NCBI GenBank assembly: GCA_944324805.1
Contig: CALUXS010000003.1
Span: forward strand, 124,001-188,000
Origin: an uncultured Acholeplasmatales bacterium
GTDB taxonomy: Bacteria > Bacillota_I > Bacilli_A > Acholeplasmatales > Anaeroplasmataceae
DNA: 64,000 nt
Direction of reading: 5' to 3'
Part shown: positions 4,237-9,888 of the stretch, piece by piece
Layout of the letters: each line of letters opens with the position of its first letter
How positions within the stretch are numbered: the first letter of the stretch is position 1
Notes under the pieces: generated by a model
What the model saw: only the letters and a program-made list of their open reading frames with translations
Database searches by the model: none
Told to the model about the DNA's origin: nothing
Made by a program: the position numbers and the translations under genes

Positions 4237-5451
4237 TTATATTTCTACATAAGCAAAAGCTTTTAAACTATTATATTTCACATCAAATTTAGTCTCTATT
4301 TTATTTTTGATATTATCAATATTTTTGATAATTTCATTTAGTGAATCATTAGTAAGATTATTTTTAAATTTAAGATATAACGGTACTCTATTTTCATTAA
4401 CATCAAAACGTTTCTTAAAATCATTTGCCTTATCATCTAAGAAAAATTCTATTTTACCTAAATAAATCATTTCATCAAAAATATAGCCTTTTTCATATTC
4501 AATTGTTCCAATTTTATTTAATGAATAATTAATATTTTTCTTAAGATAAAAAATAACATTAATTTGTTCTAAACACATACTGATTGTTTTGTATTTAAAG
4601 CAAGTCATCTTTACTTCCTTTAAATATTTTTCATCAATTTCAATTAAACTATAGTTTCCTCTTTTAGGAACATAAAATTTATAATTACCATCTTTCTTAT
4701 AAGCATAAAGAATTATATATTTACTTCTATCATTTGAATATAAAAGACACCTATCTGCAAGTTGACTATTTGTACGTTTTAAGCTATCGCCACCATACAA
4801 TAAAAAACAATTTGTTGTATCAATTTTTTCATTTGTAAAGGGATTTTTTAACTCTAAATTAGATAAATCATTTAAAATATAATCATCGCCTTCTTTAATT
4901 AAATTCAAGCTTGATATAAATTCCTCTTGAGAAAAATTTTCAACTTCATATTCAAATAAAGATTCATCATTTGAAGTAAGTTCTTTTAAAGTGGCTTCTA
5001 AATTGAAATTTGATTCTACCTTACTTGAAATATCTTCTTTTTCTTCTTTTAATTCATTAACCTTAGGATTTTTAAGAAGATTATATTTATTTTCTAAAAA
5101 CCTAGTTAACTCAATAATTTTGTTTTCTGTTTCCTTATCATAATTAAAGCCTGCTTCATCAAATTTACTAAACATTAAAAATAAATTATTTATCGCTGGG
5201 CTTTTTGGTTCTACTCTTTTAATGTCAATATTAAATAATTCCCCTAAATCCATACCATCAAGTTTAGAAGATAAGCTTTTTGACATTTCAGTAAACTGAT
5301 CCATAACATCTTTAGGCATACTATCCATGAATTTATTTAGCTCATCATAGATTTCTTCTTTATCACTTGCAAGATTAATTTTTAATCCTTCTTTTGGCTT
5401 TTTTGGTTCATTATCTTGAAATAAAGAGCTATCTAAATTTTTTATTGCCAT
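4237..5451 (-). CDS. Unrecognised protein of the Clp operon
   Basis: I do not recognise this 404-residue protein. It has no signal peptide or membrane segment. Residues 1-90 are polar, with a helical DELNKFMDSMPKDVMDQF stretch; residues 100-175 are Lys/Glu-rich and probably coiled or disordered; from about 185 to the end it looks like an alpha/beta domain with many Phe/Tyr (ending YNSLKAFAYVEI). No Walker, protease or nucleotidyltransferase motif is seen. It starts 4 bases after the ClpP-like gene and shares its transcript, so an adaptor, substrate or regulator of that protease is the natural hypothesis (inference from position only). Confidence 0.6.
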   Translation of the reverse strand: MAIKNLDSSLFQDNEPKKPKEGLKINLASDKEEIYDELNKFMDSMPKDVMDQFTEMSKSLSSKLDGMDLGELFNIDIKRVEPKSPAINNLFLMFSKFDEAGFNYDKETENKIIELTRFLENKYNLLKNPKVNELKEEKEDISSKVESNFNLEATLKELTSNDESLFEYEVENFSQEEFISSLNLIKEGDDYILNDLSNLELKNPFTNEKIDTTNCFLLYGGDSLKRTNSQLADRCLLYSNDRSKYIILYAYKKDGNYKFYVPKRGNYSLIEIDEKYLKEVKMTCFKYKTISMCLEQINVIFYLKKNINYSLNKIGTIEYEKGYIFDEMIYLGKIEFFLDDKANDFKKRFDVNENRVPLYLKFKNNLTNDSLNEIIKNIDNIKNKIETKFDVKYNSLKAFAYVEI

Positions 5452-5455
5452 ATTT

Positions 5456-6058
5456 TTACTCCTTATCGAGCTCTTTTATAAAATCTTCAAGGCTCTTAGT
5501 ATTTTTCTTTACTGGCTTTCTTATGGCATCAATTAATCCAAATTCTAAGGCTTCTTCAGCGTTCATCCAGTAATCATAGGTAGCAATTTCCATGAGTTCA
5601 TCTTCTGTTTTTCCTGTTTTCTTAGATAATATGCTAAATAAGCGTTTATTTAGTTTTTCATCAAATTCAACAGACTTCTTTAAAACTCTAAATTTACCCT
5701 CTACACCAGATGCAAGCTCATGAATCATAAATTGAGCGTTTACAGAACCATATGCATAATCGCAAACAGAACTAATTACAGTTGCCATAGATGCGCAAAT
5801 ACCAGTATTAAAAGCAACGACTGGATTTGGGATTTCGCGAATTTTATCAACAATCGCAAAACCATCTAAAACAGATCCACCACCAGAGCAAATTTCTAAC
5901 TTAATAACTGCATTAGGGTCATCATTTGCAAGCACATCTAAAAATGATGTTACTCTTTGAGCAGTTTGGGTATTTATTTCCCCATCAATTTTAATAATTC
6001 TTGATTGTAAAAGTTGTTCTTCTATATTCCATACGTTTAATTTTGTTCCATTATCCAT
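5456..6058 (-). CDS. ClpP-like serine protease subunit (S14)
   Basis: A 200-residue Clp-fold peptidase. The triad is intact by alignment to ClpP: Ser90 in GICASMATV, His113 in FMIHEL, Asp162 in YDYWMNAEEALEFGLID. It differs from housekeeping ClpP at normally fixed spots: CSGGGSV instead of SPGGSV in the oxyanion region, and MIHEL instead of MIHQP after the His. No N-terminal propeptide-like stretch is obvious. It overlaps the end of the ATPase gene at 6051-8276 by 8 bases, so the two are translationally coupled and very likely partners. A head-maturation-type ClpP is an alternative, but no phage genes are nearby. Confidence 0.85.
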   Translation of the reverse strand: MDNGTKLNVWNIEEQLLQSRIIKIDGEINTQTAQRVTSFLDVLANDDPNAVIKLEICSGGGSVLDGFAIVDKIREIPNPVVAFNTGICASMATVISSVCDYAYGSVNAQFMIHELASGVEGKFRVLKKSVEFDEKLNKRLFSILSKKTGKTEDELMEIATYDYWMNAEEALEFGLIDAIRKPVKKNTKSLEDFIKELDKE

Positions 6059-8276
6059 TTTTTCTTTCCTCCTTAACCTTATTTAAAAATGCAAGTTTAA
6101 CCACATGATCTAAATTTCTAGCTCCAAAGGCCTCTATATCCGCATCTTCCTTGATTTTTTTAATATCAGCAGACTCAAATTCAACCTTTAAGCCAGATAA
6201 TTCTTGATATTTTTCTTTATATCTTGCTATTAGTTCATCACTTACCTTTTCAGTTAAACGATTAAATACGATAATTTTATCTAATCTACCTATAAACTCT
6301 GGTGAAAAGTGTGCGTTAATAGCATCTATTGCTGATTGATTATCATCCTTGCCAAGACTCATGAAGGCCGTACCTTTCTTATTATTTGTTCCAAAACCTA
6401 AATTAGTTGTAAAAATAATAATTGCATTTCTAAAGCTTACCTTATTTCCACCTTTATCAGTGGCGTATCCTTCATCTAAAATATTTAATAATGATTTAAA
6501 TACATTATCATGAGCCTTTTCAATTTCATCAAATAAAACTACACAATTAGGATTTTGCTTTACCTTCGCTAAAAAATCACTAGTTTGCTTAAATCCTACA
6601 TATCCAGGATCTGAGCCAAATAAATAATTAACTGCGGTCTCAGATTGTAATGCTGAACCCTCAACAACAATTAGATTCTTTTCTGAACCTGTAAAGTTCT
6701 TAGCTATTAATTTAGCTGTAAAAGTTTTACCTGTCCCTGATGGACCGGCAAATAGTAAATTACATTTAGGCTTTTCAGGATCAACAATATTAAGCTCAAT
6801 CATATCTAGATACTCAACAACTTCTTTTATTGGCTCATCTTGTCCTAAAACATTTGCCTTTAACTCTTTACTTGTATCAAGACTCTTTGTGTCTGACATA
6901 TTTATATTAAACTGAATTTTTATTGAATTTAAGATATCATCTAAGATAACCTCTTTATTATTTTCACGGCAAACCTTAGAATATGCAAATGCACTTTCAA
7001 GCATTGTTAATGATTTATCCGGATTTGCGGTATGCAAATTATATTGCAATGACAATTCATATATTTTATTTATTAATTCTTCTTCCATTGTTTTAGCGAA
7101 GAATTTTTCATTTACCTCTAGTGTTTCACGCATGATTTGTAAAGTTTCCTCTTTAGAAGGCTCCTCTACTAAGACCTTAATAAAACGTCTAGAAATAGCC
7201 TTATCTTTTTCTAAATATTCATTAAATTCATCGTTAGTAGTAGCACCTATAACTTGAATATCTCCTCTTGATAGATAAGGTTTAATAATATTAGAAGCAG
7301 TCAAATCACCTTCATTTCCACCTGATTTTGCAAGTGTATGCATTTCATCAATAAATAGTATTACATTGTCTAATTTAGATACTATATCTAAAATATTTAA
7401 AATACGTTGTTCAAACTGACCTCTAAATTGGCTACCCGCTACTAAAGCATCAATATGCATTTCATAGATAATTTTATTTTTTAATTGGCTATTTAAGCGA
7501 CTTGAGTTATTGTTAATTGCATCAGCTAATTTATATACTAGCGTTGTTTTACCTGTACCTGCAGGACCAACTAAAACAGCTGATTTTTTAGTTCTTCCGG
7601 CTAAAGCAATCGTAAGCGCGGTAAACTCATTTTCCATACCAATAAATCGTAAGTCACGATGGTTGAAAACATATTTATTAATGTTTGTTAAATATTTTTT
7701 TAGTTTTTCATCCTCTAAGCTTTTTACTTCTCTTACAACAAATTTAGATAATTCTGAAGTAAAATCAGCATATAAAGCATCAACATCAAACCCGCATGTA
7801 GGAAGATCTTCTTCTAGCGTATTATTTTTTATTGCTTCATCATGTTTCTTTTTCATAATTATTGAAACATTATCTAAAACACTAAATAATACATAATTTT
7901 TATTTATAAATAGAACAACTAATAAATCAACAACATCTTCAGTATTACCATCCTCATTAGCCTTCTTCTTCAATTCAGAAATAACATTTAGCATATCATC
8001 ATCTAAATTAGTATCACTATCATAACTTAATGCTTCACTTACTCCAAATAAATTATCATATGCTTCATTTACTGCTAAATAATCAATCTTATATTTAGCT
8101 AGTAAAGTATTAAAATCTTTTTTCAAACGAGAATACTTTTCTTCTTTTACAGTATTCAAAAAATTTATTATAGCTAAAAACACGATTCCTGTATCAATCT
8201 TATTTTTACCTTTATTCAATGCAATCATACTAGCTGATTCTAACACTTTATTTATATTATCACTTAATAATTTCAT
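6051..8276 (-). CDS. ClpA/ClpC-type double AAA+ unfoldase
   Basis: A 741-residue ATPase of the Clp/Hsp100 class I type. Residues 1-150 resemble a degenerate Clp N-domain. AAA1 has Walker A GPAGTGKT (about residue 235) and Walker B VILFIDEMHTLAKSG; AAA2 has Walker A GPSGTGKT (about 509), Walker B VVLFDEIEKAH, and sensor region FSPEFIGRLDKIIVF. There is no long ClpB-type middle domain, so it is an unfoldase for a peptidase and not a disaggregase. At the position of the ClpP-docking IGL/IGF tripeptide it has TAF, which keeps the aromatic. It is first in the operon with a divergent ClpP and an unknown gene. An extended -10 promoter lies just upstream. Confidence 0.85.
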   Translation of the reverse strand: MKLLSDNINKVLESASMIALNKGKNKIDTGIVFLAIINFLNTVKEEKYSRLKKDFNTLLAKYKIDYLAVNEAYDNLFGVSEALSYDSDTNLDDDMLNVISELKKKANEDGNTEDVVDLLVVLFINKNYVLFSVLDNVSIIMKKKHDEAIKNNTLEEDLPTCGFDVDALYADFTSELSKFVVREVKSLEDEKLKKYLTNINKYVFNHRDLRFIGMENEFTALTIALAGRTKKSAVLVGPAGTGKTTLVYKLADAINNNSSRLNSQLKNKIIYEMHIDALVAGSQFRGQFEQRILNILDIVSKLDNVILFIDEMHTLAKSGGNEGDLTASNIIKPYLSRGDIQVIGATTNDEFNEYLEKDKAISRRFIKVLVEEPSKEETLQIMRETLEVNEKFFAKTMEEELINKIYELSLQYNLHTANPDKSLTMLESAFAYSKVCRENNKEVILDDILNSIKIQFNINMSDTKSLDTSKELKANVLGQDEPIKEVVEYLDMIELNIVDPEKPKCNLLFAGPSGTGKTFTAKLIAKNFTGSEKNLIVVEGSALQSETAVNYLFGSDPGYVGFKQTSDFLAKVKQNPNCVVLFDEIEKAHDNVFKSLLNILDEGYATDKGGNKVSFRNAIIIFTTNLGFGTNNKKGTAFMSLGKDDNQSAIDAINAHFSPEFIGRLDKIIVFNRLTEKVSDELIARYKEKYQELSGLKVEFESADIKKIKEDADIEAFGARNLDHVVKLAFLNKVKEERKNG

Positions 8277-8298
8277 TATACTTTTCCTTTCTAATAAT

Positions 8299-8317
8299 AG
8301 TAAGAAAAAAACTTACT
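8299..8317. repeat. Inverted repeat in the Clp operon leader
   Basis: AGTAAG - 7 bases - CTTACT between the -10 box at 8325-8333 and the ribosome site. It covers the likely transcription start, so it may be an operator; a weak leader hairpin is the alternative. Confidence 0.4.
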
Positions 8318-8324
8318 TTGTATA

Positions 8325-8333
8325 ATTATAACA
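8325..8333 (-). promoter_or_regulatory. Extended -10 promoter of the Clp operon
   Basis: Minus-strand TGTTATAAT, an extended -10 element (TGnTATAAT), about 50 bases before the ATPase ATG. No good -35 is visible, as usual for extended -10 promoters. Confidence 0.65.
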
Positions 8334-8472: not shown

Positions 8473-9888
8473 TTAAATTTTAAAAATATCATAGCAGTAA
8501 AAATATGATTTTACAAAAGGAGGAAATTGTTCTTGCATAACTTCTTTATTTCTAAAGTTTTCTATTATTTTTTCCCTTTCAAGTATAGAAGTCATTCCAT
8601 GTAGTAATATCAAATATTTAAATGATGCATTACTATCCTCTAATCTTCTTTTAGCCTCAAGCATTTTATTATAATCTTCAATATTATTATTTATAATTAC
8701 TTCTTTTTCATTAATTGGGTTCCTGATTGTACAATATTCAACAATTTCATATTTTAATGTAAAGCTATCTTTTTTATACAAATTAGTTTGAAAATCATAT
8801 TCATAACCATTCTTTTTTATGGTATTAGCAAGTTCATTTTTTAGTCCTGTCATATAAGAACGATACGTACTCTTAGAATCAATTGGATTATTATAATAAT
8901 AATTGACAATTGAGCTTTTAAAAACATTCGCTATTTTATCCTTTGACTCTAGTGTTGATAAAACTTTCTTATAGCTATCTATTATGTATTTTTTTATTGA
9001 ACTATCATATATTTCATAAAACAAAGAATACCTAGTACAAAAATCAACAAATAAATCTAAAGGTGCAGTTATTATTGCTTTAGTCTTATTACCATCTTTA
9101 ACTATTTTGTATTTCTTAAAATTCTCACTTATATATTCAAGTGTCCAATCATATAATATTCCAAGCTCATTTATACAATCAATATTAACTATTTTAATTT
9201 CTTCTTTTTCATCTAATATTTTAACATTTTGCATATATTTAATTTTAATTCCACAAAAATTATTCAAAAATATTTTATCTTTAGTATATAAATAATACAT
9301 TCCATTATAGTATTTTATCGCAACAGGTGTTATTTCATAGATGATATTTTTCTCCTTAAATTTTCCTGTTTTGCTGAATGTAAGATATTCAAAAGAAATT
9401 CTTCTTTTTTCATCTATTGCCATTTGAAGTAATTCTAAAAGCTTAACAAGGTTATAATGTTTATTATAATTATATAGTTTCTTATTGTTATTATATGCTT
9501 CTATAACACTATATTTTTTCTTATCACTATCAGATAAATCAATTGTAAGAAAATCATAAATATGCGCCATAGTTAACTCATCAATCGTTTTTTCATTATT
9601 TATTGCATTAAAAAGGATTCCTCGCTCATTATCAGAAATCATGCGTTTGTTAATATAATATCCTTTATTATAATCATGTTTTATTTTAATATCTAAATCT
9701 AAATCAATTAGAATATTTACATAATCTTGAATTGTCTTTCTATCAAGAGAAATTCCAAATTCAATTATCAGCAATTCCTTTATATCTTGAATTCTAAAGT
9801 ATTTTAAATTTGTCGGATTTTCTATTAATAGCCATAATATATTAATGATCGCACCTTTTTTAGAAAGAGAAACTTTAGGTTTTTTCAT
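8473..9888 (-). CDS. WYL-domain transcriptional regulator
   Basis: A 471-residue cytosolic regulator. The N-terminus is a winged helix (residues 10-80; recognition region DRKTIQDYVNILIDLDLDI). Residues about 160-225 look like a WYL domain: RISFEYLTFSKTGK, then YEITPVAIKYYNGMYYLY. The rest, about 240 residues, is long for the family and unrecognised. WYL domains bind nucleic acid or small ligands and often regulate stress or defence genes. It has its own terminator, and the next gene downstream is the Clp ATPase with a separate promoter carrying an inverted repeat, so control of that operon is possible but not shown. Confidence 0.75.
   Translation of the reverse strand: MKKPKVSLSKKGAIINILWLLIENPTNLKYFRIQDIKELLIIEFGISLDRKTIQDYVNILIDLDLDIKIKHDYNKGYYINKRMISDNERGILFNAINNEKTIDELTMAHIYDFLTIDLSDSDKKKYSVIEAYNNNKKLYNYNKHYNLVKLLELLQMAIDEKRRISFEYLTFSKTGKFKEKNIIYEITPVAIKYYNGMYYLYTKDKIFLNNFCGIKIKYMQNVKILDEKEEIKIVNIDCINELGILYDWTLEYISENFKKYKIVKDGNKTKAIITAPLDLFVDFCTRYSLFYEIYDSSIKKYIIDSYKKVLSTLESKDKIANVFKSSIVNYYYNNPIDSKSTYRSYMTGLKNELANTIKKNGYEYDFQTNLYKKDSFTLKYEIVEYCTIRNPINEKEVIINNNIEDYNKMLEAKRRLEDSNASFKYLILLHGMTSILEREKIIENFRNKEVMQEQFPPFVKSYFYCYDIFKI

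Follow-up and report, generated by a model that had tools for sequence, protein, structure and literature searches.

A conserved three-gene locus for the putative sole Clp protease of an Acholeplasmatales genus, with a predicted non-canonical docking interface

The genome of an uncultured Acholeplasmatales bacterium contains a ClpA-like double AAA+ unfoldase gene, a divergent clpP and a gene for a 404-residue protein without a known family (P3). In the genus of this bacterium, the three genes form a conserved unit in which the P3 gene always lies alongside the other two. As far as can be judged from sequence, the docking interface between unfoldase and ClpP is non-canonical. On a slight balance of probability, the trio would be a ClpAP-like protease specific to this lineage, with its own docking code and with P3 as a dedicated partner that most likely serves as adaptor or activator. 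The trio was found in a stretch of 64,000 nucleotides (referred to as the window) and was compared with the corresponding loci in a set of 60 related genomes, its own included. The features of the locus are:

4237..5451, minus strand: P3, 404 amino acid residues, without known family; N-terminal motif M[AP]IKNLDxSLF and C-terminal tail conserved
5456..6058, minus strand: divergent ClpP, 200 amino acid residues, with Ser90-His113-Asp162 (ORF, PF00574)
6051..8276, minus strand: ClpA-like double AAA+ unfoldase, 741 amino acid residues (ORF; Pfam AAA and AAA_2), with a divergent Clp-type N-domain (about 1-185), D1 (about 186-460) and D2 (about 461-741) and without M-domain
6363..6371, minus strand: TAF codons (unfoldase residues 636-638) in the docking-tripeptide position, derived from the ORF and the sequence
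8299..8317, no strand assigned: inverted repeat in the leader (arms 8299-8304 and 8312-8317), found upstream of the trio in this genome only
8325..8330, minus strand: TATAAT of a putative extended -10 promoter, read from the sequence and found in 7/7 trio-bearing genus members

The genes run on the minus strand from 8276 to 4237 in the order unfoldase, clpP and P3. The initial annotation of the window had described an unfoldase gene overlapping clpP, followed after 4 bases by an unrecognised 404-residue protein. Both descriptions held: the overlap is 8 bases, the unfoldase matches Pfam AAA and AAA_2, the gap before P3 is 4 bases and P3 has no significant Pfam match. Seven of the eight genus genomes carried the trio, in one and the same gene order and with genes overlapping or nearly abutting; the unfoldase was found in these seven and P3 in the same seven, next to the other two genes in each. 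The overlaps between the unfoldase gene and clpP ranged from 8 to 23 bases in all six measurable (intact) cases, and the gaps between clpP and the P3 gene ranged from 2 to 4 bases in 7/7, with a GGAG site at the end of clpP. All three ORFs were open in six of the seven trio-bearing members. In the remaining one (G006), a gap of 19 bases in comparison with its nearest relative breaks clpP (L080:2990-3579), and the unfoldase and P3 ORFs were open; this could be an assembly error, or the unfoldase and P3 could work without ClpP.

TATAAT was found 22-54 bases upstream of the unfoldase gene in 7/7 members, and the extended TG in 6/7. Thus, of the extended -10 promoter with an inverted repeat that had been attributed to the trio, the promoter largely recurred in the genus and the repeat did not. 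Neither CIRCE nor CtsR boxes were found upstream of the trio in any of the seven. The hrcA-grpE genes were near the trio in the six loci that were long enough (G000, G001, G002, G003, G006 and G007, the window's own included), with other genes in between in some. In five relatives whose loci reached that far, an MBL-like gene immediately preceded the trio. In the window, the gene for a 471-residue protein with a weak WYL-domain match (8473-9888, minus strand) lies between the trio and the gene for an MBL-fold hydrolase.

The trio had also been proposed to stand apart from a housekeeping ClpP. This part of the proposal failed, as a family search of the window's own genome (1.83 Mb, 96% complete) found a single PF00574 place, that of the trio, and no second ClpP. 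Of the two outcomes named beforehand as refuting the proposal, the first, a genome without further Clp genes for a housekeeping protease, thus applies. One other Clp-type double AAA+ protein was found in this genome, a ClpB without the N-domain (L068:2604-4715, minus strand), whose match begins at position 147 of the ClpB profile. ClpX above the cut-off was found in no genus genome and in one of the 60 related genomes. Given one ClpP place, no ClpX and only ClpB besides, the trio would be the only Clp protease of the lineage, beside Lon, for which Lon_C matches of 286-294 bits were found in 7/8 genus genomes. Among the other six trio-bearing genomes, four had one ClpP place, G006 had two fragments of one gene, and G003 had a second ClpP match of 20.8 bits covering 23-98 of 182. 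What remained of the proposal was a specialised machine with its own third protein, with which the conserved trio and its predicted non-canonical docking agree.

ClpP of any kind was found in 25 of the 60 genomes: 7/8 in the genus, 17/28 in other genera of the family and 1/24 in other families of the order. The sizes of the genus genomes ranged from 1.1 to 1.8 Mb. The eighth genus genome (G005; 91% complete, 1.1 Mb) lacked all three trio genes. It also had no ClpB match, and its only Lon match was of 42 bits, none being full-length. As a contig ends 834 bases from its hrcA, the locus may have fallen into an assembly gap, although the search covered the entire genome. Either protein quality control is strongly reduced in G005 or parts of its assembly are missing.

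Outside the genus, P3 was found neither in 395 genomes of the class, where matches came from five genus members only (own included), nor in 392 genomes of the phylum, a set that overlaps the former and in which four genus members matched. It was also absent from phages and plasmids, and no relative was found in viral contigs with the patterns used. The P3 profile gave no match with an E value between 1e-30 and 10 among 1964 ORFs of the window and the loci. P3 is thus, as far as searched at the sequence level, a genus-restricted protein. The ClpP profile scored 440-448 bits within the genus and no more than 103 bits elsewhere, with some match in 154 of the 395 class genomes; in viral contigs it identified one locus, in which a ClpP-like gene stood amid phage structural genes. 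The unfoldase profile matched four distant double-AAA proteins in viral contigs. For the plasmid relatives of the unfoldase (Roseomonas, Caulobacter and Limimaricola), no adjoining clpP was annotated, and two of them adjoin ftsH. A profile scan of contigs, which may leave out genomes very near the window's own, returned six loci, all from the same six relatives, whose titles read uncultured Acholeplasmatales or uncultured bacterium. No description of the trio was found in the open-licence literature; PMC10868615, which covers the related orders RF39, RFN20 and Acholeplasmatales, mentions clpP once.

By its sequence, the unfoldase is best classed as ClpA-like. Both Walker A/B pairs, the D1 arginine fingers, the pore loops (QFRG in D1 and GYVGF in D2) and sensor 2 were intact in all seven aligned trio proteins. 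The M-domain that defines ClpC was absent in 7/7; two intact AAA+ rings without this domain are as in ClpA. The IGL-type tripeptide of ClpA was not found, as the position at which the alignment places IGL of ClpA and VGF of ClpC is occupied by TAF, invariant in the seven genus members; the initial annotation had read this tripeptide correctly. The best NCBIfam match was ClpA TIGR02639 with 398.6 bits, under the equivalog cut-off of 993.15, and the best PHROG match was phrog_4871, "ATP-dependent protease", with 494 bits. The structural model had a mean pLDDT of 58, with a helical N-domain (ten-residue blocks of 70-94 over residues 1-180) and a mostly poor remainder. When it was compared by VIA-align, chains of ClpC, ClpA and ClpB/Hsp104 were at the top (best Z 17.1, rmsd 15.5, 397 residues); such a model would identify the superfamily correctly but not the fine classification. 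The mean pairwise identity of the N-domain was 0.64, versus 0.86 for each AAA+ ring. A role as a defence system was also considered and rejected: neither P3 nor ClpP had a PADLOC match, and the 19 matches of the unfoldase were taken as general ATPase similarity.

The trio ClpP matched CLP_protease PF00574 with 123.9 bits (cut-off 20.2). Its score was 87.9 bits against TIGR00493, the canonical housekeeping ClpP, for which the equivalog cut-off is 308.6, and 99.6 bits against NF045542, the ClpP-related phage head maturation protease, for which the cut-off is 120. Nor does the trio lie in a virion gene context; its neighbours include the MBL-fold hydrolase gene and hrcA-grpE. Ser90, His113 and Asp162, which align with S97, H122 and D171 of E. 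coli, as well as the SGGGSV and MIHEL variants, were as first annotated, and the catalytic residues were kept in all six intact ClpPs. The docking pocket, which we take to comprise E. coli positions 48, 49, 60, 62, 82, 90, 112, 114 and 189, read D-V-K-E-E-F-Y-S-R in 6/6 trio ClpPs and is thus not the hydrophobic pocket of canonical ClpPs. Five of the nine residues were charged in each of the six, compared with none (34 rows), one (13) or two (2) in 49 canonical rows and 0-2 in seven phage rows. The overall charged fractions were alike (0.238 for trio versus 0.228 for canonical ClpPs). In addition, the axial N-terminus was short, with 8-11 residues before position 17 in the trio and at least 17 in 45/49 canonical rows. 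The oligomerization sensor Glu/Asp169-Arg170 was replaced by Thr-Tyr in 6/6 trio ClpPs, with Arg170 present in 47/49 canonical rows, and the QxT motif (Gln131-x-Thr/Ser133) was replaced by Lys-Phe-Arg. With the ring-ring sensor pair and the QxT motif both changed, a 14-mer is not to be taken for granted. A review (PMC9035409) lists four functional parts of ClpP: its N-terminal loops, the H sites in which IGF loops dock, the QxT motif and the oligomerization sensor. All four of them were altered in the trio ClpP. TAF does not match the docking tripeptide (L/I/V)-G-(F/L) given in PMC8745299. The tripeptide and the pocket residues together support a non-canonical docking interface.

The identities between P3 of the window and its homologs in the genus were 40-43%. 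The best-kept parts of P3 were its first 12 and last 13 residues (mean pairwise identities 0.82 and 0.79), and the least-kept were residues 13-33 (0.38) and 96-167 (0.39). Its structural model had a mean pLDDT of 56, poor in residues 1-148 and fair in much of 168-404. Comparisons of P3 with Pfam, NCBIfam, PDB sequences and folds gave nothing above chance, a result that leaves a shared fold possible. The matches taken as chance included the folds found by VIA-align (best Z 3.5) and Foldseek (E 0.36 in PDB and 0.034 in viral models) and the families thyX (E 0.063), HSBP1 (best E 0.023, 5/7 members), DUF6714 (E 0.002, 1/7 members), NF010223 (E 0.0014) and phrog_17788 (E 0.005).

The dN/dS values of clpP ranged from 0.05 to 0.07 (5 printed pairs), making it the most constrained gene of the trio. 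Those of the unfoldase gene and of the P3 gene ranged from 0.02 to 0.17 and from 0.11 to 0.43, respectively (6 printed pairs each), and those of the flanking hrcA from 0.12 to 0.16 in three of four printed pairs; the sequences of the fourth were too similar for a measurement. For the wider pairs, synonymous change is near saturation.

Given the intact ATPase and peptidase residues, the tight operon, the joint presence of the genes and the strong constraint, a working ATP-dependent protease is the likeliest product of the locus. It would be the only Clp protease of the genus, within a lineage otherwise largely without ClpP and ClpX. A ClpA-like hexameric unfoldase would thread substrates via its two active AAA+ rings into ClpP, a compartmental serine peptidase. 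As the loop and the pocket were changed together and both are fixed in the genus, a private coupling is suggested: instead of inserting an Ile/Leu/Val-Gly-Phe/Leu loop into a greasy pocket, as is usual, the pair may use a mutually adapted contact between a TAF loop and a pocket lined by acidic and basic residues. The hydrophobic docking pocket is the binding site of ADEP antibiotics, and neither canonical unfoldases nor ADEP-type compounds that mimic the loop would be expected to engage the trio ClpP. In PMC9035409 and PMC8745299, the flexible contact of a loop in a hydrophobic pocket is described as general in Clp proteases. The only ClpP of a genus, carrying a conserved charged pocket, would thus serve as a test of what the contact between a six-fold motor and a seven-fold peptidase must supply. 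The trio would also show Clp proteolysis reshaped in a lineage mostly without ClpX and ClpP, and it is possibly an orthogonal protease for cell engineering.

We infer the role of P3, which is encoded last in the tightly packed operon, from the place of its gene. Most likely it is a dedicated partner that would act as adaptor or activator at the fast-evolving N-domain of the unfoldase. This role is favoured because P3 and the unfoldase N-domain vary while the rest of the machine is conserved, a pattern that could mark the side facing substrates. P3 could also be a substrate, an inhibitor or a bystander. That it is an obligate substrate, co-produced with the protease and broken down except when a signal protects it, with its conserved N-terminal peptide as the degron, is in our view unlikely: the start of P3 2-4 bases after clpP in 7/7 members, the near-invariant 12-residue N-terminus (0.82) beside a poorly kept stretch (0.38), and the low-confidence, perhaps disordered residues 1-148 agree with such a substrate, but a degraded regulator would usually have a recognisable output domain and none was found in P3. 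It is rather improbable that P3 is instead a structural coupler or gate bridging unfoldase and ClpP in a three-component protease, where it would replace the hydrophobic contact and the axial loops and make ATP-driven proteolysis P3-dependent. Equally improbable is an ordinary ClpAP that has drifted in a fast-evolving lineage, with TAF inserting in a reshaped pocket and P3 as an unrelated passenger. The small genus genomes (1.1-1.8 Mb) and the retention of all AAA+ and peptidase catalytic residues are as this would have it. However, the low dN/dS of clpP indicates strong constraint, TAF and all nine pocket residues are the same in each intact member and hence do not look like drift in progress, relatives within the family have retained xGF and pockets that are mostly hydrophobic, and P3 is in place in 7/7. 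An unfoldase uncoupled from ClpP, working with P3 as a remodelling machine beside ClpP as a lone peptidase, is the least probable of these readings; it would account for the absence of canonical docking residues from both partners, the partial loss of the axial N-terminus and the open unfoldase and P3 genes of G006 beside a broken clpP. Against it stand the gene overlap and fixed order among the members and the position of clpP as the most constrained of the three genes; moreover, a closed ClpP without a partner would presumably have little to do.

Compatible with a dedicated ClpAP-like protease is a phage origin of the unfoldase/ClpP pair, as a module of the jumbo-phage ClpA/ClpP type domesticated by the ancestor of the genus; we regard this as possible and hold it with low confidence. 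Besides phrog_4871 being the best PHROG match of the unfoldase, the top tblastn phage matches, at about 300 bits, were from the jumbo phages RaK2, K64-1 and GAP32, the trio stood beside RaK2/GAP32 in two of three unfoldase trees (80/81; 84/94), and ClpPs of jumbo and mega-phages were nearest in the first ClpP tree. However, the joins in the ClpP trees are on very long branches, for which the tool warned of false joining, and one unfoldase tree left the trio outside all others. Nor did AU tests reject a clade of the trio ClpP with the family's own ClpP (p-AU 0.193) or of the unfoldase with the family's ClpC-like proteins (p-AU 0.152). The absence of P3 from phages, and from viral contigs with the patterns used, and the proximity of the locus to hrcA-grpE in the six loci long enough also speak against a phage source. 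The trees and AU tests are compatible with a phage-like as well as with a vertical origin.

Similar to ClpAP of E. coli with its ClpS adaptor, the trio combines a double AAA+ unfoldase without M-domain with a Ser-His-Asp serine peptidase, and the adaptor gene clpS directly adjoins clpA in E. coli. Different from E. coli ClpAP, the trio has TAF instead of IGL, a charged instead of a hydrophobic pocket and a shortened ClpP N-terminus, its unfoldase gene and clpP overlap in one operon, and its 404-residue P3 has no Pfam match above chance. ClpCP of Bacillota, in which MecA and McsB exemplify the adaptor principle, shares the two-ring unfoldase and the Clp-type N-domain; the trio differs from it by lacking the M-domain and VGF, and P3 is unlike any family found. 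The ClpA-like proteins of jumbo phages (phrog_4871; RaK2 and GAP32) resemble the trio unfoldase in their PHROG profile, in a possible neighbourhood in the trees and in lacking an M-domain. The central Gly of the tripeptide is, however, kept in RaK2 and GAP32 (IGV and LGM), and their genes stand amid virion genes; the stretches compared have neither clpP nor P3 in their annotation.

ClpC-like proteins of the same family, which occur with canonical ClpP, also have a Clp-type N-domain and no long M-domain. Different from the trio unfoldase, their second ring lacks Walker A and B (15/15), and the xGF tripeptide is kept in all 15 such proteins, which come from same-family genomes with canonical ClpP. 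They are 625-659 amino acid residues in length (L146:3311-5269, minus strand, and one each in L147-L160), and their pore-loop region is kept. A ClpC-like protein of this type was found in 16/17 family genomes with canonical ClpP and in 0/11 without it, and it is thus probably the main motor of the canonical ClpP. In two family genomes (L144:4007-6216 and L145:4518-6700, plus strand), a different, second ClpP gene is directly followed by a gene for a protein of 530-539 amino acid residues without known family and by a third gene that, by eye, resembles a conjugation coupling ATPase.
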